Positions 1-12,339 of a DNA stretch of 12,339 nucleotides are shown in pieces. Below the pieces are notes generated by a model, which did no database searches, was not told where the DNA came from, and worked only from the letters and a program-made list of their open reading frames with translations. The stretch's first letter is position 1, and each line of letters opens with the position of its first letter. Made by a program: the position numbers and the translations under genes. Origin of the DNA: Chloroflexota bacterium (GTDB lineage: Bacteria; Chloroflexota; Anaerolineae; J102); assembly GCA_003353825.1 (NCBI GenBank), contig PIVW01000139.1, positions 1 through 12,339 on the forward strand, read 5' to 3'.

Positions 1-467
1 GTGAGGGAGGTAAACAATGGGATAAGGATTGCCCGCACCCCAAAACGACTCCAACTGAGATGCCAATAAGAGATGGCCAGGGTAAAGGCAGCCAACAACC
101 CCCCATATTTCTCAAGAGCGCCCTTCTCACCCGCAAATAACGCTTTGGCAACCGCGTACATGGCCGGGATCGTGAGAATTCCGACAATAGCGGCTGCGAT
201 ATGAATAGCGGGTGGCGTGTACCCGACCTGCCCTACTACCAGCGCCACCAGATAGCTGAACATCACCTCCCGCCCGAAATTGGTGGGCAAAAAGAGGGGC
301 CGTTCTCCCGCCAGGATATCGATGGCATCCACCCCATACCAAGCCGGGTCATAGCCATCGCCGGGCGGAAGCGTATTGATCTGGTATAAGCGATAAAACG
401 CCGCTAGCAGTATGATAGCCGCCAGCAGCGCCAGGCTAAAGAGCGTTCGTTTATGGTTTTGGCTCAT
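1..467 (-). CDS. GT-C glycosyltransferase (GT39/ArnT-like), N-terminal part, cut by window edge
   Basis: An open frame of 155 codons runs from an ATG at 467 to the window edge with no stop. Its predicted role is an integral-membrane GT-C glycosyltransferase that transfers a sugar from a polyprenyl-phosphate donor outside the membrane. After a first membrane segment (residues about 9-25) comes the first extracytoplasmic loop, with the motif DPAWYGVDA; its acidic residues sit where GT-C enzymes carry the catalytic Asp. This is followed by FLPTNFGREV, and a second hydrophobic stretch leads to SYWHLSWSRFGVRAIL. The same motifs in the same order occur in the protein at 5505-7580, and roughly two thirds of aligned residues match, so the two are paralogs. 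The start is supported by that alignment (MSQ here, MSN there). It lies 31 nt after the DUF4956 stop, so it is probably the next gene of the same operon. Donor and acceptor cannot be told from the sequence. Confidence 0.85.
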   Translation of the reverse strand, partial: MSQNHKRTLFSLALLAAIILLAAFYRLYQINTLPPGDGYDPAWYGVDAIDILAGERPLFLPTNFGREVMFSYLVALVVGQVGYTPPAIHIAAAIVGILTIPAMYAVAKALFAGEKGALEKYGGLLAAFTLAISYWHLSWSRFGVRAILIPLFTSL

Positions 468-498
468 CCGATATTCTGTAACCGGCAGGGTACACCCA

Positions 499-1197
499 TT
501 ACAAGTCCACTTCCTGTTGTCCGGTGATCAGCGCTACTTTGTTGTTATCATTGAGCAGGCGCAGGTCGTTGATCATCGCCTGAGCATCGGCCTGTTTTCT
601 GAGTTCGATTCCGTAGACTAATTCTGTCAGGGTCCCTGCCTGCACTGTCTCCATGGCGATAAGATGCCAGCGTGCCAGATACTGTTCGAATATCTTGTTA
701 AAAACACGTTCATACGGGATATCGCCTGGGAGCCTTATTTTGAGCACTTGCTCCCTCACATCTTTGGCAAACATATCCAGCCTGACCATGACCCACACCA
801 GAGAACTGATGAGAACGGTGGAAATTACCGCCAGTAGGTAAAAGCGGGTGCCGCAGGCCATACCGATAGCCATGGCAAAGAAGATGAATCCTACATCCCG
901 TGTCTCTTTGACCGCATTACGGAAACGGATAATAGAGAGCGCCCCCACCAGAGTAAAGGCTCGGGCGATGTTCGAGCCCACGATTAACATGATAATGGCG
1001 ACAACCATGCTCACCAAGACCAACGTCTGTACAAAACTCTGGCTGTAGGAAGTGCCGTGATGCGTGATCTTGTACATCCAGGCAATGACCAATGAGAGTG
1101 CGAAGCTAAGGACGATGGTGAGAACCAGATCCTGGATAGTAAAGGTAGCTACGGTGTTTTCGAGTTGTGCGAATAAAGCGGTGAGATCTTCCATCAT
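499..1197 (-). CDS. DUF4956 family membrane protein
   Basis: This 232-residue protein has hydrophobic segments at about residues 22-41, 54-74 and 103-138, followed by a soluble C-terminal domain of about 90 residues. The stretch ARAFTLVGALSIIRFRNA with the following KETRDVGFIFFAMAIG (residues 78-112) matches the conserved core that I recognise as DUF4956. The family has no settled biochemical role, but its genes very often sit next to VTC-domain polyphosphate polymerase genes, as here. A membrane partner for the VTC protein is a reasonable inference. The start has tandem ATG codons at 1197 and 1194. A good AGGAG ribosome site (complement of 1200-1204) lies 2 nt from the first and 5 nt from the second, so the second ATG may be the one used. 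The gene is separated from the VTC gene by an unusually long 187-nt gap. Confidence 0.88.
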   Translation of the reverse strand: MMEDLTALFAQLENTVATFTIQDLVLTIVLSFALSLVIAWMYKITHHGTSYSQSFVQTLVLVSMVVAIIMLIVGSNIARAFTLVGALSIIRFRNAVKETRDVGFIFFAMAIGMACGTRFYLLAVISTVLISSLVWVMVRLDMFAKDVREQVLKIRLPGDIPYERVFNKIFEQYLARWHLIAMETVQAGTLTELVYGIELRKQADAQAMINDLRLLNDNNKVALITGQQEVDL

Positions 1198-1199
1198 CT

Positions 1200-1204
1200 C
1201 TCCT
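1200..1204 (-). promoter_or_regulatory. Ribosome binding site deciding the DUF4956 start
   Basis: AGGAG on the minus strand precedes tandem ATG codons. The spacing of 5 nt to the ATG at 1194 is better than 2 nt to the ATG at 1197. It is the clearest Shine-Dalgarno sequence in the window; most other genes here have weak ones. Confidence 0.6.
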
Positions 1205-1272
1205 GTAGACAGGTGAATTTCTGTATATCAAAAATCAGTTGCTTCAACGAGATTTCATACGGTTTATTTGGG

Positions 1273-1338
1273 CGTGTTGCGTGTTGCGTTTAATGCGGAT
1301 TTTCACAGATATAGATGTTATATCCGTGTGCGAAACCC
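1273..1338. repeat. Short tandem heptamer and imperfect inverted repeat in the VTC-DUF4956 gap
   Basis: The 187-nt gap 1198-1384 contains no gene. It holds two tandem copies of CGTGTTG (1273-1286). Next comes an imperfect hairpin at 1296-1338 whose core is GATATA (1308-1313), a 5-nt loop and TATATC (1319-1324); the outer arms pair partially (CGGATTTTC against GCGAAACCCG). A further GTGTGAATTCGTGT lies at about 1340-1353. The texture of short, related GTGT/CGTG units resembles dispersed intergenic repeats seen in environmental genomes. Whether it is a repeat family, an RNA processing site or a decayed sequence cannot be decided from one copy. Confidence 0.4.
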
Positions 1339-1384
1339 GTGTGAATTCGTGTCCCTTATCTGGGAGCTATGAGTCAGAGCTTCA

Positions 1385-2137
1385 CTAGTTTTCAGCGATC
1401 CGTTGCCGGCTTTGGATGACCTCGCCAACTTCAAGTGAGGTGCAATACTTGCTGATTCGGCGCTGCGTGCAACTATGTTTGCCGATAATTTCAGTTAGCC
1501 AATAGGGCACCCGGTGATTGATCTTGATCTCCATGATGTACCAGTGTGGCGGTAGAAAATAGCGATTGCCGGCGTAGGTTTCAGAGAGCAGGGATAGGTC
1601 ATGGACTCGAAATTTCAGGTCAGAGTCGAAGGTAATACGCAGGCCGGGATCATATTGGCCGCCATTGAAAGCAAGTCGATCATAACGCACAATGCAGGTG
1701 GGGCGAAGTTGCAACACATCATGAAGATAGAGGGCCTCTTGTAACGTAGCGGCATCGTCCGGGCTTAGGGTTGTGGCCAGTTGCCGATAGTTGGCGCTCT
1801 CCATGGCTTGTTCATGCGGTAACACGACGCGCCGTTTGGATACGGTTTTGTAGAGACGTTGTTTGATTTCGACGAAACAACGGGTTTGCGGCGTCACGAC
1901 CTGGTTGCCATAAACTCGCACTCGTAGCTTGCGACGGTAGGGATGGCCCTCCAGCTTATCCCAATAAGCCTTGTAATCGGCCGAATCGAAATAGAGACTG
2001 GTGACGGTGTAGCGGCCTTGGGCATCACCATAGTCATCCGTTTCGATGTAGTCTAGCAGTGTTTCTGAAACTGCTGCGACTTGGTCGCTGTGCAGGATGT
2101 ATTTGAGTTCAAAACGCTGAGCTGTCTTGTAGCGCAT
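1385..2137 (-). CDS. VTC domain protein (polyphosphate polymerase family)
   Basis: This 250-residue protein is essentially a bare VTC domain, the triphosphate-tunnel fold that in yeast Vtc4 polymerises ATP gamma-phosphate into polyphosphate. The basic and acidic tunnel signature is readable in order: RFELKY (8-13), TSLYFD (46-51), RRKLRVRVYG (68-77), FVEIKQR (88-94), KRRV (101-104), IVRYDR (149-154), LRITFD (166-171), YIMEIKIN (200-207) and SKYC (229-232). Alternating Lys and Arg with Glu at the strands that bind phosphate and metal suggest an active enzyme. No membrane segment is present, so an association with the DUF4956 membrane protein is likely. The gene starts at an ATG 24 nt after the cotH stop, without a strong ribosome site, and is presumably co-transcribed with it. 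Polyphosphate synthesis is inferred from the family; another phosphate-polymer or phosphotransfer reaction is possible. Confidence 0.9.
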   Translation of the reverse strand: MRYKTAQRFELKYILHSDQVAAVSETLLDYIETDDYGDAQGRYTVTSLYFDSADYKAYWDKLEGHPYRRKLRVRVYGNQVVTPQTRCFVEIKQRLYKTVSKRRVVLPHEQAMESANYRQLATTLSPDDAATLQEALYLHDVLQLRPTCIVRYDRLAFNGGQYDPGLRITFDSDLKFRVHDLSLLSETYAGNRYFLPPHWYIMEIKINHRVPYWLTEIIGKHSCTQRRISKYCTSLEVGEVIQSRQRIAEN

Positions 2138-2161
2138 CGTGGTAAGGGTCTGAGTTAGCGA

Positions 2162-5092
2162 TTACGGCTCGGGTTCATCACGGCCGGGTGAGCCATAGAG
2201 AAGGTGGCTGGCTCGCCAGCTTCGGGGATCGTCAGGATCGCTCGACAGATCGACGAGCACCAACGAATCACCGCCGCCGTTCGCACTAAGCGGCCAGCCG
2301 TTGGCAATACCATAACTGACAGAGGAGATCACGTCACCCTGAGCGTCGAGCAGGGTGATAGTTTCACCTTCGTTGGCCAGCTTGCCTGTGTAAAAACCGT
2401 GAAAGTCAGCTTCGGGTTGCATCTCGCGGAACGCCAGGAAATCGCGTATAAGCACGATGAAAGCACCGGGGCTCAAGGATGTGCCCAAGGGAAAACGATA
2501 GTCGATGCCGTCGATGTAGGCGTTTGAAAGATTCATAGTGGCATCGCCGACGTTTTTTACTTCGATGAATTCGTAGTCGCTGCCACTGGGAGGATTGTAC
2601 ATCAGTTCGGTGATGCGCACATCTGGATGCTGGCCGACTCGGGTGAATGTGGCCTCTCGCATGGCGCTCCAGGTGTCACCCTCCTTTAGGCGCGATTTGA
2701 CCGTGGTTTCGGCGCTGATCTCCAGCGGCTCGGTGTAAACGATGGCCGAATCGGATACTTCACCTGTCACCCTCTTCCGTGGATCAGACCCATCCAAAGT
2801 GAAATAAATCGATCCTGCCGGCGCCGACATCTTCAACGTTAGGCTATCTTCAAATGACCCTCCAGGCTGGCTCCATTGGGGTGGATCGATGGCCGGATAA
2901 TAGTTTTCTTCACGCAGTAGCCTGATGAGTTTGTCACCATTGCCATCCATTTGCGCCAGTACGTAAGCACGAGCATGTTGCCAATCGGCCGGGGTAATGG
3001 GTTCCTCGAAACGCACATCTCCCCATCGTGCAGACTCGGCCACGATCGCGGGTTCGATGACATCCGTTATAGCCAACCAGCGGGCTTTGGCGTTTTCATC
3101 GCTAAGGGTGCCATCATTGAACAGGTGCTTGTAGACACGGTCGGCAAACAGCAGACGGAAATCAGGGTTTTCAAACAGGGCGGCCAGTGTTAGTTTTACC
3201 ACATTGGGGAAAGGAGCACCTTCCTTGCCACCCTTCCCCAGGTAAAGCCCGGCGCCACCATCCCAGCTCAGCTCCATATCCCACACGAAGAAGCGATTTT
3301 GACCGGCGGGCAATTGCACGTCGGCGTACCAGTTGTTATCGGGCCAATCTTCGGTGCCGGCATACCAATTCAAGATCACATAGTCGCTGAATTGCTCAGG
3401 GTCGATGAACTCGAGCATGGTGGCATATTTCTCAGGATCGACCAGGCCAGCTTCCTCGGCCAGGCGAATCAGGGTCGCAAAGCGATCCCACTGGCCACTG
3501 ACAGTACCTCCGTGGTTGGCTGTGTACCAGTCTGCTTTCTTGCCACCATAGTAGGAGGAGGCAAAGGATGCGTCTGGTCTTTCTACGACATTGTAAAGAC
3601 CCCAATAGAGACCATTAAGATAAAGGTGGGCGAATATGCCATGCGAACCCACTCCCGACATCTCGATCTGCGATGCTCGACCCCATTGGTCACGGGCATA
3701 GGCCGCATCGTGTGGATTCTGATTCGCAGGCACGCTCATGAAACTGCGATTGGCTCCCGCTCGCATCACCAGGGTGTCAAATTCACTGACAAATGAATCG
3801 GGGAAAAGTTGGTAGACCAGCTTGGAGGGGCCGTAATCGGACTTGAAGAAGAGCCGGAATGAATGTTTGGGCATATATTCCCAGCGGGAAAAACCCCCCT
3901 GTAACCTGGCTCCGACATTGGTCTGAAACCCCTCCCGGCTGCCGTCAGGATAAAACAATTCAACCGAGGCGGGGCGCTCTGCTTCAGGGCCGCGCATCTG
4001 CGGGTCCTCGAAATAGATATCCAGATTTTCGATGGCGGTTACCAGGGATATGACCGGAAGCGCCTCCAAACTGGAGTTCAGCATGGGGCCGTATTCAGGG
4101 TCGTTAACAATGTCCGGGTCCAGGCCGTAGTCTGATCGCACTGGTTCGCCATGGACGTAGCCGGCAGTGGTTTTGCGGTGTGTGCCCCAGGTCTCAGGCC
4201 AACCTTGGGGATCACCGACCTGCTGCCGTACCATATCTATAAAAATATAGGTGTGCGTGACCGATGCGGGTGCTTGCAAGTCCGGCTTGAAGGCAGTTGC
4301 TCGCAGTACAGTGGTGTTGTCCAGCGAAATCGGCATCTCATAGCGGATACCATTGATTGTAGAGGGATCGCTGCCGTCTAGGGTGTAATAGATAACTGCC
4401 TCGGGCGTATCGGTACTGAGAGCTACATCGATGGGCTCGTCGTAATAACCTCTTGTCCGACTAAAATGTACCGATGCAACCAGGTTTTGTTGAGCTTTTA
4501 TAGATAGATTGGCTTCACCAGGTGAGGGTTGGTCGAGATAACAATAACCATCGATTTCTGGACACAAACCATAAGACTTATCTCCTACCTGAGTGGGGTA
4601 ACTAACCTCAATGGCATCAAGATAACGGCGAGAGCTGGGGTCATACAATGCCAGAAAACCGCCATCCGCGTTCAGTCTGAAATTGGTGTGCAGATATGCA
4701 GGAGAGGTTTCGCCTGAATCACCGGAAACTGATTTCAGCAGTGAACTGCGATCTTTAGCTGAAGCAAACAATAGCAGGCGCTCACCTGCAGGCAGAACAA
4801 CAGCAGGGAACATCCATTTTTCGGGCTGAAAGGGACTATCTGTCAGTGTCCAATTGCCAAGGTTAACATCTCTCAAGCCGCGATTATAAAGCTCAATCCA
4901 ATCTTCAAACTCGCCCTCTTCATCGCTAAGTGCAGTTATTGCAGTTTGATTGGCTGCCATGAATTCGCTAATCACCACTGGGCTATGGCTATTGCCACTT
5001 GATTCTGTGGGCCATGTGAGAATCCGCCCCAATCCCAACAGGAGGAGAATGACGATGGCAGTCCAGAACAGACGCTTGTGTAGCAGTTTCAT
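2162..5092 (-). CDS. CotH kinase family protein with lamin-tail and chitobiase-type domains
   Basis: A 976-residue surface protein. An N-terminal signal anchor (residues about 6-22) is followed by a symmetric series of domains. These are a lamin-tail domain (about 38-195, with ISEFMA and FEDWIELYN), a chitobiase C-terminal-like domain (about 210-285, YYTLDGSDP), the CotH domain (about 345-730), a second chitobiase-like domain (about 735-818, YFTLDGSDP) and a second lamin-tail domain (about 822-976, ITELMYNPP). CotH proteins are atypical protein kinases, known from Bacillus spore-coat phosphorylation. Kinase-type landmarks here are KHSFRLFFK (K409), LYNVVERPD (E504), EDWPDNNWY (D582 to N587) and FFVWDMELSWDG (D605, E607). 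The likely substrate is a surface protein or polymer, by inference. The chosen ATG at 5092 aligns with the start of the duplicated cotH remnant at 10274; a TTG at 5113 would add seven residues. It is the first gene of unit A. Confidence 0.9.
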   Translation of the reverse strand: MKLLHKRLFWTAIVILLLLGLGRILTWPTESSGNSHSPVVISEFMAANQTAITALSDEEGEFEDWIELYNRGLRDVNLGNWTLTDSPFQPEKWMFPAVVLPAGERLLLFASAKDRSSLLKSVSGDSGETSPAYLHTNFRLNADGGFLALYDPSSRRYLDAIEVSYPTQVGDKSYGLCPEIDGYCYLDQPSPGEANLSIKAQQNLVASVHFSRTRGYYDEPIDVALSTDTPEAVIYYTLDGSDPSTINGIRYEMPISLDNTTVLRATAFKPDLQAPASVTHTYIFIDMVRQQVGDPQGWPETWGTHRKTTAGYVHGEPVRSDYGLDPDIVNDPEYGPMLNSSLEALPVISLVTAIENLDIYFEDPQMRGPEAERPASVELFYPDGSREGFQTNVGARLQGGFSRWEYMPKHSFRLFFKSDYGPSKLVYQLFPDSFVSEFDTLVMRAGANRSFMSVPANQNPHDAAYARDQWGRASQIEMSGVGSHGIFAHLYLNGLYWGLYNVVERPDASFASSYYGGKKADWYTANHGGTVSGQWDRFATLIRLAEEAGLVDPEKYATMLEFIDPEQFSDYVILNWYAGTEDWPDNNWYADVQLPAGQNRFFVWDMELSWDGGAGLYLGKGGKEGAPFPNVVKLTLAALFENPDFRLLFADRVYKHLFNDGTLSDENAKARWLAITDVIEPAIVAESARWGDVRFEEPITPADWQHARAYVLAQMDGNGDKLIRLLREENYYPAIDPPQWSQPGGSFEDSLTLKMSAPAGSIYFTLDGSDPRKRVTGEVSDSAIVYTEPLEISAETTVKSRLKEGDTWSAMREATFTRVGQHPDVRITELMYNPPSGSDYEFIEVKNVGDATMNLSNAYIDGIDYRFPLGTSLSPGAFIVLIRDFLAFREMQPEADFHGFYTGKLANEGETITLLDAQGDVISSVSYGIANGWPLSANGGGDSLVLVDLSSDPDDPRSWRASHLLYGSPGRDEPEP

Positions 5093-5217
5093 ATGTTGGG
5101 TACAGGATAACAACAGTTGCGGTGCGGAAATCTGTTTGCATTTGGTCGTGTAACCAACACAGTACAGTCAGTCGTTAACAGATGATTATACCATCTGCCA
5201 AAAGAATAGCCCGAAAG
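5051..5217 (-). repeat. Duplicated promoter-leader-cotH start block, copy A
   Basis: This block is clearly similar to 10231-10399. Shared stretches, read on the plus strand, include a GTCCAGAACAG/GTCCAAAACAG pair, GGGTACAGGA, AACCAACACAG, ATTATACCA and ATAGCCCGAAAG. It covers the -10 element, the roughly 90-nt leader and the first 14 or so codons of cotH. Similarity stops abruptly upstream of ATAGCCCGAAAG. Confidence 0.85.
5185..5193 (-). promoter_or_regulatory. Extended -10 promoter of the cotH-VTC-DUF4956 unit
   Basis: The minus strand reads TGGTATAAT, a consensus extended -10 element (TGnTATAAT), with no good -35 hexamer upstream. Instead there is CTTTCGGGCTATT, which is conserved in the same place in copy B. 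The -10 lies 93 nt from the cotH ATG, exactly the distance found in copy B. Conservation between the two copies supports function. Confidence 0.65.
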
Positions 5218-5381
5218 TTTTTCCGAATTCTTGAGAAATGGTTTTGTTGTTACTTGGATATTTCACTTCTGTCCTTTTCTGTGGATCGTGCTTCTGGCGA
5301 GATCCGCCGTGGGGTATACACTTCGGCTACAGAACAGTGCCCCATCTATGGAGCTGATTCGTTGAAGAAAATGTCTTGTGA

Positions 5382-5397
5382 GCCCGATAAATCGGGC
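5382..5397. terminator. GC-rich hairpin between the two units, possible terminator
   Basis: GCCCGA, TAAA, TCGGGC forms a perfect 6-bp stem with a tetraloop, 108 nt beyond the stop of the glycosyltransferase at 5505. A T-rich stretch (TTTTCTT) lies about ten bases beyond it on the minus strand, which is not canonical. The surrounding stretch 5218-5481 holds no convincing gene; a 5-bp hairpin GTCGT/ACGAC (5429-5441) is also present. Confidence 0.35.
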
Positions 5398-5481
5398 GTT
5401 GTTTGAGATTTATCCCCTGGCGGCGTGCGTCGTAAGACGACAGATTATCGGCGCTAGCAGACCTAGATTATGCCTGGGCCA

Positions 5482-5510
5482 GAATGATAGTCAAACCCAC
5501 ACTATCATTC
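5482..5510. terminator. Perfect 10-bp hairpin overlapping a stop codon
   Basis: GAATGATAGT (5482-5491) and ACTATCATTC (5501-5510) are perfect inverted repeats around a 9-base loop. The TGA of the glycosyltransferase (5507-5505) lies inside one arm. No U-run follows, so it may be an mRNA 3'-end stabiliser or processing site rather than an intrinsic terminator. Confidence 0.4.
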
Positions 5511-7580
5511 GCCAATCTCGACATGAACTAGCATGTAGGAATTGCCAATCACCCCCCCTGTCTCTTTCATCAGTGACAGTCGTTCCAAGGATGGCCAAAG
5601 ATAGAATCCTGTGTGCAGCTCGTACATGCCCGCCGGGGTTTCGGGTGGGATGTGAAATGTAATTTGCTCCCGAACGATTTCACCAGGCGCCCAAGTAGAT
5701 GTTGGGTAAAATTGCTGGCAGGGTTGGCTGTCATATCCAGCCCAAAGCGGTCCATTGCTGGCGGGGTTGAATTCGCCCAGAAGTTGTACAAAGGCGGTGT
5801 AGTCGGCGTCTATATCGCCCAGAGCTTCATAGTAGAGAGTGAGATATATGGTATCACCAGGTTGGTAGGTCGAACGGTCGAAGTCATAACCCAACAGGCG
5901 GATGTAGTTCTCCCAGTTAGCAAGGGCTGAGGTGGATGGCGTCATTTGAGATTGCATTCCTGCAGGCACTCGATAGGCTAGGAAGGAGGGCTGACCATAG
6001 TGCAATGATCCATTGGCACTGATTTCGCCATCAGGGAAGTAAGTGGCGAGCATTTCCAGACTGAAGGGATCATCTTGTTCGCCGGGCAGGATGATGTAGG
6101 TGATATCTGACTGTGTTTCTGTGGGCGTGACCATGCAGACCCGACCATTGTATCGTTTGAGGCCGCCACGCCTCTTTGAACCAAAGACAATGCTTGGGTG
6201 CTCGACAGGTACCGGGGAAATGTAAACAGGCTCATCTTCTGACAAGGTTGTTGTGTACTGACCGATTTCCGAGAGCGGGGTTTCAAGGTGGGTATAGAGG
6301 TCTTGATCATCGCCCCAGACTACAAAATAATCATAAAAGGTGAAGATTGAGCTAGCGACAAGAGTCAGCACGATCGCCCCCTGACCAACGTATTTGAGTA
6401 CATGTGCCACCCGCGTGTCCCGCTTTCTCGCCCAGTGGTTTAATCCCCTCCAGGGAGCCAATGCGCCCAATACAATGAAGAGCACGACCACAGGTAGGCT
6501 ACCGATCGCCCGCTTGGTGGTTTGGCCAACCGCTAGAATAGCAGGCACGATCATAATCAGCAGCCATGCAAATATGAATTGGTAATTCGGCCGTTTAATG
6601 CGCCACAGGCCGATTCCCATCCCCAAGAGGAATAAAATGGCGGCGAAGATATCAAGGATGGGACGTCCAAGCAGGTAGTAGATGATTTCGTTTTCGCCGG
6701 TGCGGAGCAGAATCAGGAAATATCCGACGAATCGCTCCAACATTACTTGCAAGTTGGAGCCAATCCCTTGTTCTTGGTTGACCGCCCAAGTCTGGTTGAT
6801 GCGTTCGGAAAAGCTGCCGGGATGGGTGAGGAAATAAGATCCCAGGGGAGCGAAAACAATTACCGATGTCCCGACTACGATCATAAAGTTCCAAACATCG
6901 TCCTTGCCCGAACGCGCTTTGTGGGTGATGTGGATGATAAAGCCTGCGATGACCACAAGCGGCATGATGCGAGCGGCTTGATAGGTATAAGCACTCAACC
7001 CTAACAGTACACCTGTAAGCACATAGTTCCACCGTAATTCTGTGCGAAAAGCCCGCAGCAAGTAGTAAAAGGCCAAGCAGGAAAACAGTGGGAGAAGAAT
7101 TGCCCGAACACCGAAGCGGCTCCAACTGAGGTGCCAGTAGGAGACAGCCAGCACGAAGGCAGCCAGGAGTGCTCCGTAGTCGCCTAGCACACCTTCTTCC
7201 TCGGCAAATAGTTCTTTGGCGACCCAATATATCGCCGGAATGGTGAGGATGCCAACAATAGCAGAGGCAATGTGAATAGACAGAGGCACAGCGCCAAAAA
7301 GCCACACGGTCAGTGCAGTAATATAGCTGAAAAGCACTTCCCGCCCGAAGTTAGTGGGCAGAAAGATGGGCAGCTTTCCGGCCAGAATCTCGAGAGCATC
7401 GACACCATACCAAGCGGGATCATACCAGACCCCAGGTGGAAGCCTGTCGATATGATAGAGCCGGAAAAAAGAAGCAATCGACAGGATACTCACAAAAATG
7501 AGCAGTTTGAGCAGAGGATACTGCTTCTTCTCTTCTCCTTTCACCTTATCGTCTGCATCAAACAGGGTTTCGTTAGACAA
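5505..7580 (-). CDS. GT-C glycosyltransferase (GT39/ArnT-like) with C-terminal extracytoplasmic domain
   Basis: This 691-residue polytopic membrane protein has a cytoplasmic lysine-rich start and a first membrane segment at about 23-39. The catalytic-loop motif WYDPAWYGVDA (residues 52-62; D54 is the likely base) is followed by many hydrophobic segments up to about residue 415. The extracytoplasmic C-terminal region ends in a beta-rich domain at about 560-690 (LLGYDF, YQPGDTIYLTLYYE, SQPC, TWAPGE, GMYELHTGFY). The same domain ends the upstream protein at 7597-10188. The predicted activity is transfer of sugar from a polyprenyl-phosphate sugar to a surface protein or glycan; the exact substrate is unknown. 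The start is TTG at 7580, preceded by AGGAAAGAG and supported by the matching N-terminus of the paralog at 467. No in-frame ATG precedes the conserved region. It begins 16 nt after the upstream stop, so the two form an operon. Confidence 0.87.
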   Translation of the reverse strand: MSNETLFDADDKVKGEEKKQYPLLKLLIFVSILSIASFFRLYHIDRLPPGVWYDPAWYGVDALEILAGKLPIFLPTNFGREVLFSYITALTVWLFGAVPLSIHIASAIVGILTIPAIYWVAKELFAEEEGVLGDYGALLAAFVLAVSYWHLSWSRFGVRAILLPLFSCLAFYYLLRAFRTELRWNYVLTGVLLGLSAYTYQAARIMPLVVIAGFIIHITHKARSGKDDVWNFMIVVGTSVIVFAPLGSYFLTHPGSFSERINQTWAVNQEQGIGSNLQVMLERFVGYFLILLRTGENEIIYYLLGRPILDIFAAILFLLGMGIGLWRIKRPNYQFIFAWLLIMIVPAILAVGQTTKRAIGSLPVVVLFIVLGALAPWRGLNHWARKRDTRVAHVLKYVGQGAIVLTLVASSIFTFYDYFVVWGDDQDLYTHLETPLSEIGQYTTTLSEDEPVYISPVPVEHPSIVFGSKRRGGLKRYNGRVCMVTPTETQSDITYIILPGEQDDPFSLEMLATYFPDGEISANGSLHYGQPSFLAYRVPAGMQSQMTPSTSALANWENYIRLLGYDFDRSTYQPGDTIYLTLYYEALGDIDADYTAFVQLLGEFNPASNGPLWAGYDSQPCQQFYPTSTWAPGEIVREQITFHIPPETPAGMYELHTGFYLWPSLERLSLMKETGGVIGNSYMLVHVEIGE

Positions 7581-7596
7581 GGTTGTACTCTTTCCT

Positions 7597-10188
7597 TCAT
7601 GGTTCCAAAATGGTTACATCGGTTAGATAAACATTGTCAGCTACATAGGTTCCGTCCTGCGTCGTCACATCAAGCCGTTGTAGAGTTTCTAGCTCATACA
7701 TGCCAATTCGTAAAGGCACCGTCCCGGTTGGGCTATCTATCTTGATGGGGATGCGATGTGGATCGATAATAGTCTCTCCAGGGTGCCAACCCGATGTAGG
7801 GCGAGCGCTGCACGATGGTTTGCCATCTAATTGACCACGCATCATCGCCCCATCATGCAAGTGATTGAAGATATGATATTCCCCGGTCGGCAGATCTGTG
7901 ACTTCCCACAGTAGGGTGAGATCGATATAGCCTCCGGGCTTGGCTTGTTCTGTGTTGAGTGTGTAGCCCTTAAGTCTGGCAAATTCACCCAGTACAATGT
8001 CTTGTGGGATGTAGTCCTCAGGCGCAGTAAATTCAGTCTCCTGGGTGATGGCAGCGACTTTATCGGGTGTTGTGTTTTGGTCAAAAAGACGCGAATAGTC
8101 TTCGACACGAACCTTCGTTGATTCTTTTGTGACATCGTGGCGGTGTATCGTCAATTTTGGTTCACCTTCGACCGTGACCACAACTGCCGGTTGATAATAA
8201 GACTCGACCTGATTCCATTCGATACCACTTTCATCCTGGACATTGACAGCTGTGATGTAGACCTCGGGGGTGAGGCAGCTACGGCGTTCGGCGTGACGGG
8301 TGTAATAATTAGTAATGTGCCGCTCTTCATTGCTGCTGTAACTGGCAGCAAACTGATCGCTGTCTCTCAGATAGCCTACGACTTTCCAGCCTGCCCGGTA
8401 AGGAAAACCAAAGAGACCCGCTTCTGGGATTTGCTCATAGGGCGTCCAGTAAATCGAATATTGCGCTTCGGGGAAATTGCGTCGGTATTCTGGTACGTGA
8501 TCGACAAACATCGTGACGGTATAAAACGCGCACAGAACATAGATGCCCGCACCAAGTCCAACAGCCACCAATTGCGTCGTATGCGAGCGCCGCTTCAGCC
8601 ACTGCCAGACTTCGAGCAACCCCAGCGCACCAAGCAAAGTCCAGGGTGTGAAGAATGTGTGAACATGTGTCCAAGGAAATGAAACCAGAAAGATGTAAAA
8701 CAAGAAGGGGAAACCAAACCACACCCAAACTGCTCGTCTACCCATCGATTGTTTTGGCGCAAGTAATGCTCCCATGATCAGAATTGTGAAGGGTAGCCAG
8801 GCTAGGGTACTTTCGCCCACGATCCAGAGCTCGGGCCAACCCATAGCGGTTACCGACGCCAAAATGAACAGAAAGCCGATTCCGAGACCGATTTTGCCCC
8901 ATTTTGCCCAAGTGACAAGGGCTGTCATCAACCAGGCTAGCGCCACTAAAATCAAGAAGTAGATAGAATCATAAACAGTGCTGAGAACAAACGTCTGCTG
9001 GATGTTGTTGTTAATAGTGCCGCCTACTCGTGAGCCTACGTAGGCCGACGTATACTCAACCCAAGAGCTCTGGGAAAACGGAATATAAAAAATGCCTATA
9101 AGGATCAAGCCGAGTATACCCGCGGACACAACGTAGGCGAGTTCGCGCCAGATGTTTTGTCGATCTCTCCATAATTTTGCCATGATGAGGAGAATCCCGG
9201 CAGGCAATGCCAAGCCAGCATCATAATGAGTCAGTAAACCTCCAGCGAAAAACATAGCAGCGACTAAAACAAGGGCACTGTGATCTTTTTTGTAGTAGAC
9301 GAGTAGGCATAATAAGGCGAGAGTTGTGAGTGCGAAGACAATGCTTTGATATTGGGTAATGCGTGCAAAGGCAACAAGATAACCTTCAATCGCCAGTAAA
9401 GCCATAGCAATGATGCCTACGGCTGGACTTTTTAAGCGACGGCCAAAGAGATAGACACCAACCAGTCCCAATAGGCTTATCCAGGCAAACGGTAATCTGA
9501 CCATCCATTCATTGGTAATACCAGTTAGGCGCCAATTCCCCATAACAACTGTGATTTCTGCTGGTGCCTTTTTGTGTTGAAAGACAACACCATCATCCCC
9601 CTCGAGTATGCGCGCAGCATTGATCATGACGATCGCTTCATCGCCCTGGAATTCTGAATAGTCCAGATTGATGAAGCGCATGCCTGCTGCAATGATAAAC
9701 ACAATCATCAACCAGAACCATATCCTGTGCCACAGTGGTTTAGTGGATGAATCCGCCATAACCGGATCACCGTCGCTAGTGTCATTATCGCGGGCTTGGT
9801 TTTTGCGTTGAACGAGGGTAAAAATAGCTAATGGCAAGCCAACTAGCACAACGATTCCCAGCAAGATGTGTGTGGCTGTTAAGGGTCCCGGAAGATAGGA
9901 GAGTAACAGAATCGCGATTGGTGTGACAACGAAACTGAGGCCGAGGCTAATTGTTAGGTGTTCAAAGCGATCCAGATAATGTGTGGGGATGAGCTGTCCC
10001 CAGGCCAAGCCAGGTAGTATCCACAGAAGTATGACGGCAAAGCCGTAACGCGCTAAAGCCCAAGGGACAATCGTAACAACAAAGGCGGCAACGAGCGTAA
10101 TAGTGAAGATCAGTAATGGTTTTCCAAGATATGCTAGGAATGGGGTTTTAGAGGGTTGCGACTGAGGGGGTGAGTGCATCGAATTCAT
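7597..10188 (-). CDS. Large GT-C glycosyltransferase with N-terminal DUF1616-like membrane domain
   Basis: This protein has 863 residues from the ATG at 10188. An alternative ATG at 10179 has a better-spaced AGG ribosome site. Residues about 20-125 form four membrane segments with LPG, P, LDRFE and SLGLSF elements; I find these DUF1616-like. A hydrophilic Asp/Ser-rich linker follows, then a GT-C catalytic core. There FQGDEA (residues 180-185) in the first long loop supplies the expected acidic residues. Many further membrane segments are followed by an extracytoplasmic part ending in a beta-rich domain (about 739-863: LKGYTL, KPGGYIDLTLLWE, SGWHPGE, LRIGMYELETLQRL), shared with the neighbour at 5505-7580. 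Only weak similarity to that neighbour is seen in the catalytic core. The frame is open to a TTG at 10311, but those 41 codons cross the cotH remnant in another frame and are unlikely to be translated. It is the first complete gene of unit B. Confidence 0.83.
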   Translation of the reverse strand: MNSMHSPPQSQPSKTPFLAYLGKPLLIFTITLVAAFVVTIVPWALARYGFAVILLWILPGLAWGQLIPTHYLDRFEHLTISLGLSFVVTPIAILLLSYLPGPLTATHILLGIVVLVGLPLAIFTLVQRKNQARDNDTSDGDPVMADSSTKPLWHRIWFWLMIVFIIAAGMRFINLDYSEFQGDEAIVMINAARILEGDDGVVFQHKKAPAEITVVMGNWRLTGITNEWMVRLPFAWISLLGLVGVYLFGRRLKSPAVGIIAMALLAIEGYLVAFARITQYQSIVFALTTLALLCLLVYYKKDHSALVLVAAMFFAGGLLTHYDAGLALPAGILLIMAKLWRDRQNIWRELAYVVSAGILGLILIGIFYIPFSQSSWVEYTSAYVGSRVGGTINNNIQQTFVLSTVYDSIYFLILVALAWLMTALVTWAKWGKIGLGIGFLFILASVTAMGWPELWIVGESTLAWLPFTILIMGALLAPKQSMGRRAVWVWFGFPFLFYIFLVSFPWTHVHTFFTPWTLLGALGLLEVWQWLKRRSHTTQLVAVGLGAGIYVLCAFYTVTMFVDHVPEYRRNFPEAQYSIYWTPYEQIPEAGLFGFPYRAGWKVVGYLRDSDQFAASYSSNEERHITNYYTRHAERRSCLTPEVYITAVNVQDESGIEWNQVESYYQPAVVVTVEGEPKLTIHRHDVTKESTKVRVEDYSRLFDQNTTPDKVAAITQETEFTAPEDYIPQDIVLGEFARLKGYTLNTEQAKPGGYIDLTLLWEVTDLPTGEYHIFNHLHDGAMMRGQLDGKPSCSARPTSGWHPGETIIDPHRIPIKIDSPTGTVPLRIGMYELETLQRLDVTTQDGTYVADNVYLTDVTILEP

Positions 10189-10196
10189 ACCTAGTG

Positions 10197-10274
10197 CTAG
10201 AGTGTTCGCTTTCCGTATGTGGTACTGATGATGGCAATGGCGGTCCAAAACAGGCGTTTGTGTTGTGGCTTCAT
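10197..10274 (-). pseudogene. Truncated cotH 5' end (25-codon remnant) in the leader of unit B
   Basis: ATG at 10274 opens a 25-codon frame reading MKPQHKRLFWTAIAII, then an unrelated tail, then TAG at 10197. The intact CotH protein starts MKLLHKRLFWTAIVIL, so 12 of 16 residues match, including the KRLFWTAI core of its signal anchor. An in-frame ATG at 10283 could add three residues. The frame ends 8 nt before the ATG of the large glycosyltransferase. It is either a decayed cotH duplicate or a small leader peptide that couples translation to the next gene. It is too short to be a functional kinase. Identity is directly visible; the history is inferred. Confidence 0.8.
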
Positions 10275-10399
10275 ACGATACATATTGGGGTACAGGAACT
10301 GCGGTGAACAAGACCGCTCACTGTCAGTCTCGAAACCAACACAGAGCAGTCAACCGCCAACACAATATTATACCACCCGCCGAAAAAATAGCCCGAAAG
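10231..10399 (-). repeat. Duplicated promoter-leader-cotH start block, copy B
   Basis: This is the partner of 5051-5217. Collinear similarity runs from the cotH-like codons through the leader and the extended -10 element, and ends after ATAGCCCGAAAG. The leader is less conserved in its middle (about 10290-10325) than near the promoter and the start codon. A local GCGGT/ACCGC hairpin (10301-10317) is present only in this copy. Confidence 0.85.
10367..10375 (-). promoter_or_regulatory. Extended -10 promoter of the glycosyltransferase unit B
   Basis: The minus strand reads TGGTATAAT, identical to the element at 5185-5193. It lies 93 nt from the cotH-remnant ATG, and the same CTTTCGGGCTATT stretch is upstream. 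The shared promoter implies that units A and B are expressed together. Confidence 0.65.
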
Positions 10400-10422
10400 C
10401 GTTACAGGATGGAAAAGGGTCT

Positions 10423-11199
10423 TCATATCAACGGGGCGTGACAGACGAGAGACCAGACACGATGTGGGGTCAAGACCGGATCTTCAGGAAATCTCGATAC
10501 GAGCAATTCGCGAAGAGCTTCATCGAATTGGGCAACGGCTGCCGGAGGCAGGCTCGCAGCCACACCGGCGCTGGCTCGTATGCGCCCCCGCCAAGCTTCG
10601 TGGCTGTACCAAACGGGCACATCGAAAGAAAAGGTCTCGATCTCCACGAACCCACCCAACGCTACATCGGCCAACCAATCGGGGTGTAATCCCGTACCGC
10701 CGGCGCCAGCCCACCGGGGATTATGTTCGAGGATCAAACGTTCGGTCGCGTCCACAACATTACCGGACAGTGGTAACCAATCGAAGTGGGCGATCACCAG
10801 AACACCACCTGGAATTAGCAGCCGTCTGACTTCAGCCGCGGCCTGAGACCGCTCGAACCAATGCCAGCATTGACCTGCCGTCACCACATCGAATGCCTTG
10901 GCAGCCAGTCCGCTTGCTTCTGATGCGGCATTGACCAGATGAAAATGCGTCCCGGGCTCGCTGTTGAGTTGCTGTGCGGCCTTGAGCATAGGCAACGACG
11001 GATCCAGGCCGGTGACATCACAACCTCGCCTGGCGAAACCCCGGGCTAATGTGCCGGTTCCTGTGCCCAGATCAAGCAGACGCTGTTCGGGTAGTCCTAC
11101 ATGGAATGCTCGTAACCTATTGAAAAACTCGTCCGGAAACCCGGCACGGTGGCGGCTGTAATCTTTGCTGGTTTTGCCGAAATCTATGGTGTCAGGCAT
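10423..11199 (-). CDS. Class I SAM-dependent methyltransferase
   Basis: This 258-residue soluble protein has a Rossmann-type methyltransferase core. Motif I is LLDLGTGTGTLARGF (residues 41-55), followed by the acidic residue that binds the SAM ribose in VTGLDPS (D66). FDVVTAGQCWHWF (103-115) is motif II-like, and RRLLIPGGVLVIAHFDW (125-141) is the post-II strand. The pattern fits the Methyltransf_11/UbiE-like group, and the CWHWF segment is typical of a widespread subgroup of uncharacterised small-molecule methyltransferases. The substrate cannot be predicted. The gene starts at an ATG at 11199, with no strong ribosome site, 67 nt after the upstream membrane protein. It ends before the promoter of unit B, so it is probably not part of that operon. 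Its sequence looks more GC-rich than units A and B. Confidence 0.88.
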   Translation of the reverse strand: MPDTIDFGKTSKDYSRHRAGFPDEFFNRLRAFHVGLPEQRLLDLGTGTGTLARGFARRGCDVTGLDPSLPMLKAAQQLNSEPGTHFHLVNAASEASGLAAKAFDVVTAGQCWHWFERSQAAAEVRRLLIPGGVLVIAHFDWLPLSGNVVDATERLILEHNPRWAGAGGTGLHPDWLADVALGGFVEIETFSFDVPVWYSHEAWRGRIRASAGVAASLPPAAVAQFDEALRELLVSRFPEDPVLTPHRVWSLVCHAPLI

Positions 11200-11266
11200 G
11201 AGAAAGATCTGTGGAAATCAACGTCATTAGCGTAGCACTTTCCTGTAGTGCAACATGAATGTAACG

Positions 11267-12337
11267 TTACGGGACCAGTGGCCGCACGATCTCAGTATGT
11301 GGGGCCCCCGATCGTTCTCGAATGATGGCAATGGTTTCCAACTGTATGCCCTCTTCGATGGCGATAGTTTTCAGTGCTTCACGGCGGCCGGGGAAGTTGG
11401 TGCGGTCGAGGGCGTGCAGAAGGAATACGGAGTCTGAGTCCTTCAGCAAAGGCCGGATCCGATCCGAGTAGCCATCTCCGGGTACATCAAAACGGTCGTA
11501 GCCGAATATCTCGATGGGGTTGATGTCGCCGCCCGAGACCAGGATGAGGGGTGCATCGAAACCCCAGTCGAGCGCGTAGGGTTGGCTGATGCCTTCTGCA
11601 ACCAGGACCTCGGATAAGCGATAGGAGGCGTCTGAATGGTCGGCATAGCCACCACTGGCGGTCAGCGACTGATGGTAGCCGATATCGGCGCGCAGGCTGC
11701 TCAATCCTAATGCAGCCACAAATACGACGGCCAGTGCGGTTGCCTGAAGATGCCGAAACTGCCGAAATAACAGATCCCATGAGGTAGCGATCCCCAATGC
11801 CAGTACAGGAGAGAAAAAGGCCAGATGCGTGTACCACAAAGCGGTAGGGGTTAGGGGTGTCTGTAAGAGTAACAGAGCGAAATAGGCGTAAAAGAACAAG
11901 CTTCTCAGGGCCCCCGCTCGTTCATGAGGATCTCGCCGGCGCAATAGCAGCAAAGCCAGCGTAATCACAAAACCCAGTAGCCAAGCCGGGTAAGCGAGGA
12001 GATCGACGAAGTTACCACCCAGGTACCAAAAATGATTGCCCTTCAAATAATCCCCGATCTGCCCCCAGCGAATGGCGATATTTTCCAGATAGTTGGTATT
12101 TTCAATCCCGTAATAGGATTGGCTTAATGTGCCCAGAAAATGATCGAATGTAGCGCCTGTTTGCCAATTGAATAAGAGAAAGGGACTGAGTCCTAATAGA
12201 AAGAAGAGCAGAGCGAGCACCAGCGCGCCTGGCCGGAACAACTGCCTGGGCCCAAACCCCTCCACAGGTTCTAATTCGAAGTGGCGGCGAAAAATCCAGA
12301 CGAGTGGTGCCAGCACGACCGTAGCCAGCAGTGGCCA
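11267..12337 (-). CDS. Polytopic membrane protein, probable GT-C glycosyltransferase, C-terminal part (5' end outside window)
   Basis: The frame is open to the window edge, so the true start lies beyond 12339; about 356 codons are visible. The visible part has about six hydrophobic segments (for example around LVLALLFFLLGLSPFLLF, YPAWLLGFVITLALLLL, SLFFYAYFALLLL and ALAVVFVAALGLSS). It ends in a soluble region of about 130 residues with ALDWGFDAPLILVSGG and IEIFGYDRF. This matches the C-terminal half of GT39-like membrane glycosyltransferases, but the catalytic loop would be in the missing N-terminal half, so the family call is tentative. It lacks the beta-rich C-terminal domain found in the two glycosyltransferases of unit B. 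The stop codon TAA at 11267-11269 lies within a GTAACGTTAC palindrome. Confidence 0.65.
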   Translation of the reverse strand, partial: WPLLATVVLAPLVWIFRRHFELEPVEGFGPRQLFRPGALVLALLFFLLGLSPFLLFNWQTGATFDHFLGTLSQSYYGIENTNYLENIAIRWGQIGDYLKGNHFWYLGGNFVDLLAYPAWLLGFVITLALLLLRRRDPHERAGALRSLFFYAYFALLLLQTPLTPTALWYTHLAFFSPVLALGIATSWDLLFRQFRHLQATALAVVFVAALGLSSLRADIGYHQSLTASGGYADHSDASYRLSEVLVAEGISQPYALDWGFDAPLILVSGGDINPIEIFGYDRFDVPGDGYSDRIRPLLKDSDSVFLLHALDRTNFPGRREALKTIAIEEGIQLETIAIIRERSGAPHTEIVRPLVP

Positions 12338-12339
12338 CA

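Follow-up and report, generated by a model that had tools for sequence, protein, structure and literature searches.

A divergent cassette holding two glycosyltransferase genes (GT863 and GT691), a promoter and the head of a cotH gene probably entered this locus by recombination within cotH, producing what looks like a duplication. The window, by which we mean the whole stretch analysed, is a 12,339-nt contig of an uncultured Chloroflexota bacterium. All of its listed genes lie on the minus strand and, in the direction of transcription, run from a membrane protein fragment and a methyltransferase through a first promoter block (block B), GT863 and GT691 to a second promoter block (block A), cotH, VTC, DUF4956 and the start of a third glycosyltransferase (GT-A). 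These genes belong to known kinds. The features are given below in that order; L001 is the best-matching locus from another genome.

11267-12337, minus strand: membrane protein, 3′ part of an open reading frame that has 567 aa in L001; upstream flank, 89-96% nucleotide identity to L001 per 100 nt; no match in Pfam or NCBIfam
10423-11199, minus strand: class I methyltransferase (Methyltransf_11, Pfam), taken as resident upstream flank; syntenic with L001 4405-5181
10231-10399, minus strand: block B, read as the resident promoter, leader and first ~17 cotH codons; homologous to 5049-5217
10197-10274, minus strand: cotH stub of 25 codons, from ATG at 10274 to TAG at 10199-10197, by sequence inspection
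7597-10188, minus strand: GT863, an 863-aa PMT_2-type membrane glycosyltransferase (Pfam PMT_2, 40.0 bits, cut-off 26.1)
5505-7580, minus strand: GT691, a 691-aa PMT_2-type glycosyltransferase with a C-terminal beta domain (Pfam PMT_2, 45.7 bits, cut-off 26.1; tree, approximately unbiased (AU) test, structure model and Foldseek)
5218-5504, minus strand: intergenic DNA separating GT691 from block A; contains a palindrome (5382-5397) and has no match in L001
5049-5217, minus strand: block A, with promoter, leader and cotH start; 68-75% to L001 per 100 nt, 72% in another comparison
2162-5092, minus strand: cotH, complete gene (Pfam)
4152-5092, minus strand: cotH first third, roughly residues 1-313; divergent, low in GC3, with a CHB_HEX/Fn3_assoc stretch (changepoint, GC3, Pfam)
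2162-4151, minus strand: remainder of cotH, taken as resident; Pfam places the CotH kinase domain at residues 484-704 and a lamin-tail domain at 822-928; 85-99% nucleotide identity to L001 per 100 nt
1385-2137, minus strand: VTC-domain protein (Pfam PF09359, 157.1 bits)
499-1197, minus strand: DUF4956 protein (Pfam PF16316, 65.3 bits)
3-467, minus strand: GT-A, N-terminal 155 aa of the downstream glycosyltransferase, which continues past the window edge; 97% to the 678-aa glycosyltransferase of L001, 64% aa identity to GT691

The GT-A fragment had a PMT_2 score of 17.3 in Pfam, under the cut-off of 26.1, and searches of the window for tRNAs and Rfam families gave no match.

A scan of genome contigs with the glycosyltransferase alignment gave 18 loci, the best of which, L001 (JAAENG010000401.1), comes from Chloroflexi MAG Bse_26 (genome G001). 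L001 aligned with window positions 1-5217 and 10227-12339 at 89-90%. At the left end its likeness to the window stopped at about 10227, and the segment in between is absent from L001: within 5218-10226, the sole match was its single glycosyltransferase against GT691 (64.7%). The genes of L001 are the methyltransferase, one promoter block, an intact cotH in the place that the 25-codon stub occupies in block B, VTC, DUF4956 and a 678-aa glycosyltransferase, 97% identical to GT-A over the visible 155 aa. This locus holds no second GT691-type copy and no GT863 counterpart. An earlier, sequence-only reading of the window had proposed that a cotH-to-glycosyltransferase unit was duplicated in tandem and that the core of the upstream copy was later replaced. 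The unduplicated state it looked for in a relative is present in L001, and the third glycosyltransferase does carry the same C-terminal domain as GT691, judged from its L001 counterpart, which aligns with GT691 through to the end. Elsewhere in G001, matches to GT691 reached at most 28% over the membrane part, with C-terminal-only matches of up to 45%. The best match to GT863 in G001 was 32%, and a homologue in genome G002 had 57%. The region L060 of G001 (7959-10466) holds a distant GT863 relative (30-32%) with one TAG within the matched stretch.

Comparing the window with itself by BLAST (E≤0.1) returned two repeat pairs in the same order. One pairs the promoter blocks (10231-10399 with 5049-5217; 169 nt ungapped, 68.6%, E 1.8e-12), bearing out the claim that both units begin with the same promoter, leader and cotH 5′ end in so far as these heads are homologous. 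The other pairs the glycosyltransferase starts (7079-7457 with 8-386; 379 nt, 69.9%, E 5.8e-44), and related glycosyltransferases are indeed present in both units. A repeat finder split the glycosyltransferase pair into two pieces, missed the promoter pair at the settings used and added two 20-nt matches at 85%, one direct and one inverted, both probably chance. As had also been claimed, the upstream unit carries only a truncated cotH start; the stub ends 8 nt ahead of the GT863 ATG, and an additional in-frame ATG lies at 10283. Both blocks contain TGGTATAAT, a form of extended -10 element (minus strand; 5193-5185 in A, 10375-10367 in B). Neither site was among the predictions of a two-hexamer promoter scan, and the totals of the promoter and terminator scans were at shuffle level (15 versus 12.0 and 12 versus 11.3, respectively). 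Co-expression of the two units, as suggested earlier, is plausible, and both promoters may be active.

Block B starts 23 nt past the methyltransferase, the same spacing as for the block in L001. In a three-way comparison, B agreed with L001 at 31 sites and A with L001 at 12 (two-sided binomial 0.005), A agreed with B at 9, all three differed at 8 and 6 columns held gaps. Broken down by part, likeness to L001 for B versus A was 21 versus 5 sites in the promoter and 10 versus 7 in the leader and coding part (from column 104 on). On these site counts and the shared spacing, the best reading is that block B represents the resident cotH's front end and that block A is a divergent copy. The idea that the L001 block switches from B-like to A-like exactly where the A/B homology ends was weakened by the site counts and was not used. 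We rejected a dispersed repeat as well: with the L001 block as query, only one of 20 genomes matched at E≤0.001 (G001, a single copy at the cotH locus), and the other 19 had none, so the many unrelated copies that would have spoken against a trace of operon duplication were not found. Against the regions preceding cotH in six other genomes, the blocks matched G003 at the cotH start (E 4e-6); the rest of these regions yielded short matches only (E of 0.01 or worse), and the promoter itself matched nowhere. A 16-nt palindrome, GCCCGATAAATCGGGC (5382-5397), in the gap from GT691 to promoter A is a possible terminator. A promoter-like two-hexamer site (5494-5467, 10/12, minus strand) sits right behind the GT691 stop, within the segment missing from L001.

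Identity to L001 along the window formed a mosaic. In 100-nt steps, the upstream flank (12339-10440) had 88-96% in 17 of 19 steps and 79 and 81% in the other two, and the two steps across block B had 86 and 76%. Steps in block A and the cotH first third fell to 67-82%. Downstream of this, identity was 85-100% per step, bar one step of 65% at 1406-1295; that step covers the end of VTC and the VTC-DUF4956 spacer, includes 12 gap columns and has surroundings far closer to L001. A changepoint search over block A and cotH placed the best breakpoint at 4152 (4144-4154 being the interval within two log units); mismatch was 27% before it and 6.5% after. The log-likelihood ratio was 117.7, whereas permuting 30-nt blocks 300 times gave no value above 26.1. 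A second changepoint, at 3440, was not used, its ratio of 9.8 being close to the permutation mean of 9.2. Four-fold degenerate sites of cotH differed from L001 at 51 of 103 positions in residues 1-283 versus 45 of 301 in residues 324-976, a tally that leaves out residues 284-323 (3 of 14), the row spanning the breakpoint. Because these sites differ too, the divergence of the cotH head reflects a different history and not relaxed protein constraint. Derivation of L001 by simple deletion between the two blocks was rejected, since the block and the cotH first third would then differ by about 6.5%, not 27%.

Part of the segment also deviates in composition (all GC3 p values are uncorrected for several tests). 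In the window cotH, GC3 was 148/313 (0.473) in the first third versus 406/663 (0.612) in the rest (p 4e-5). The corresponding values in L001 were 189/316 (0.598) and 409/660 (0.620; p 0.53), and the two first thirds differed from each other (p 0.002). GT863 had a GC3 of 438/863 (0.508) versus 0.606 in the pooled flanks (p 1.5e-6). GT691 (395/691, 0.572) did not differ clearly from the flanks (p 0.12); values just as low were found for the methyltransferase and VTC genes, both resident (0.572-0.574). Because the odd composition of the cotH head sits in the window and not in L001, it suggests that the window lineage was the recipient of the DNA.

The glycosyltransferases have a phylogeny of their own. 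Both a quick tree, built from the listed glycosyltransferases (119 of 120, one of under 600 aa being left out), and a careful tree of 22 rows taken from it paired GT691 with P0002, a protein of ENA source with 72-74% identity, then with the L001 glycosyltransferase and then with that of G002. Forcing GT691 together with the downstream glycosyltransferase of L001 cost 44 log units and was rejected (AU p 1.9e-5). Identity between GT691 and the L001 glycosyltransferase was 0.582, and 0.546 and 0.527 to G002, as against 0.737 between the cotH first thirds of the window and L001, with 0.464 and 0.484 to G002. With unequal rates as a caveat, the glycosyltransferase pair looks older than the cotH-head pair, and the two would be hard to place in one event.

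The duplication reading thus stands for its homologous heads and its unduplicated relative, and fails as a single tandem cotH-to-glycosyltransferase duplication with later core replacement: block A and the cotH first third are far less like L001 than their flanks (mostly 85-100%), the breakpoint falls inside cotH, GT691 is sister to P0002 and the two pairs differ in relative age. Most simply, one of the two promoter-cotH heads is the resident's and the other the incomer's.

In the history that we favour, the ancestral locus would have been arranged as in L001 (methyltransferase, promoter, cotH, VTC, DUF4956, glycosyltransferase). In the window lineage, resident cotH codons ~18-313 would have given way, perhaps in a single event, to roughly 6.1 kb of divergent DNA (from 10226 to about 4150) that carried GT863 and GT691 together with another cotH promoter and codons 1 to ~313 of a divergent cotH. 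Homologous recombination within cotH, near 4152, may have sealed one end. For the other, just past resident codon ~17, we assume a join without homology, the pattern of homology-facilitated illegitimate recombination. Common to that mechanism and the window are one homologous junction and adjoining DNA without a resident counterpart; the window case differs in being read from a sequence mosaic alone. The term appears in reference titles of PMC8116780. The outcome would be a resident promoter with a 25-codon stub (block B) ahead of GT863-GT691, and an imported promoter (block A) ahead of a hybrid cotH, with a new N-terminal third and the old kinase domain, followed by VTC, DUF4956 and GT-A. With a single close relative, itself a MAG contig, the direction of transfer is read from the stub and from GC3. 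Neither the genome searches nor the matches listed (120 proteins per query) included a locus that could be the donor. P0002 is a relative of GT691; among the matches listed for GT863 and cotH (120 proteins each) no entry shared its contig size, which is no evidence on the gene content of that contig.

The main rival to this history is an older tandem duplication in a common ancestor, after which the core of unit B gave way to GT863; in L001, unit B would later have disappeared when incoming DNA replaced the region from the promoter through the cotH first third. It would account for two homologous heads and two homologous glycosyltransferases in the same order, the tree permits a duplication predating the P0002 split, and L001 diverges over exactly the promoter-to-cotH-first-third stretch. 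We nonetheless regard it as unlikely: it requires three steps (duplication, core replacement and later replacement in L001), the shift in cotH composition is in the window and not in L001, the cotH head is intact in L001 where block B has a stub, and the glycosyltransferase pair seems older than the cotH-head pair.

The cassette could instead have come from another cotH locus within its own genome. Some genomes of the class (G238, G304, G280 and G174, for example) have two cotH matches on different contigs, and G220 and G247 have adjacent cotH genes. Yet cotH matched just one place in G001 at E≤1e-20, G001 has no close relative of GT691 or GT863 elsewhere, and GC3 deviates in part of the segment, which makes intragenomic exchange rather improbable. 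A chimeric assembly, which the shortness of the contig (12,339 bases) and the sharp-edged divergent tracts would fit, is very improbable in turn. Evidence against it comes from P0121 (GT863, listed at 100%) and P0241 (cotH, 98%), whose entries give the same longest contig, 20,225 bases; from this equal figure, the two would share one contig. P0241 is 97.6% like the window cotH over the first third and 98% overall, so it is not the same sequence. Import of a cassette remains our preferred reading. It implies that homologous copies of a promoter and gene head can arise without duplication, one resident and one imported, in an arrangement that a single contig alone would present as a duplication.

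Across the class, cotH matches at E≤1e-80 occurred in 23 of 396 sampled genomes, with up to two candidates scored per genome among the matches listed. We viewed 14 other cotH loci, those of G002, G003, G017 and G015 and ten regions from ten further genomes. VTC and DUF4956 adjoin cotH at nine of them, the exceptions being G247 (with a partial DUF4956 at the contig edge), G238, G229, G017 and G015. A glycosyltransferase of GT691 or GT863 type lies next to cotH in G332 (331 bits), G220 (454 and 143 bits) and, weakly, G247 (34-98 bits). None was seen beside cotH at the remaining 11 of the 14, of which several are cut by contig ends (G120, G017 and G003 end near cotH), so these loci do not establish the glycosyltransferase as a fixed part of the cotH unit. 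In G002, the cotH-VTC-DUF4956 set, a GT691-type glycosyltransferase and the GT863 relative are on three separate contigs. As only some of the loci have an adjacent one, glycosyltransferases seem to join and leave the cotH-VTC-DUF4956 module. One locus of G220 (L093, 1077-14545) reads, in one direction, glycosyltransferase, GT863-like gene, cotH, cotH, VTC, DUF4956, the window order with a doubled cotH. One of G247 (L092, 1468-13736) has two adjacent cotH genes followed by three genes with weak glycosyltransferase profile matches.

A speculative extension is that surface operons of Chloroflexota repeatedly take up glycosyltransferase cassettes at the cotH head, meaning its promoter, leader and signal anchor. 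If so, each capture would leave the old promoter before the newcomers, cotH would gain a promoter to match as well as a new outer third, and new sugar transferases would fall under the same control at once.

The accessible text of PMC7112168 describes an accessory group of cotH, polyphosphate polymerase and DUF4956 next to Gram-positive pel genes. The window shares with that group, as far as it is described there, contiguous cotH, VTC and DUF4956 genes by genes of glycan synthesis; equating VTC with the polyphosphate-polymerase gene is ours, as the word VTC is absent from that text. In contrast to the pel-linked group as described there, the window neighbours are PMT_2-type glycosyltransferases, and Pfam scans of eight window proteins found no DUF4832 and no pel family. 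Our literature search found no paper treating CotH, VTC and DUF4956 together. In a few other Chloroflexota genomes, too, cotH-VTC-DUF4956 adjoins PMT_2-type glycosyltransferases, which suggests a common envelope-glycan task. The products would most likely modify envelope glycans, combining lipid-linked sugar transfer with CotH-type phosphorylation, possibly as one system. The imported third would probably alter the N-terminal, substrate- or surface-facing part of CotH, the kinase domain being in the resident part.

Both window glycosyltransferases resemble the lipid-linked sugar transferases of the ArnT/PMT family (GT-C fold) in their PMT_2 match and, for GT691, in structure. Their Agl23 scores (TIGR03663, NCBIfam) of 31.2 and 24.2 are far under the cut-off of 126.25, and PDB sequence searches with the glycosyltransferase alignment, cotH and VTC gave no match at E≤0.01. 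A GT691 model (mean pLDDT 76.9, pTM 0.60) matched oligosaccharyltransferase chains (best E 1.3e-7) and ArnT (1e-5) in Foldseek. It also matched the Wzt carbohydrate-binding domain over about 145 columns (E 1.3e-4 and weaker) and other beta-sandwich proteins such as NPC2 (about 1e-3); with query-normalised TM-scores of at most 0.43, these structural matches are a fold-level lead. The Wzt match would fall on the C-terminal part of GT691, the beta-rich end of the model, an extra domain by which GT691 differs from the ArnT/PMT family. The C-terminal domains of GT691 (residues ~558-691) and GT863 (~735-862) are related to each other (29% over 135 columns), and matches to the C-terminal end of the glycosyltransferases recur in many proteins of G001 and G002.
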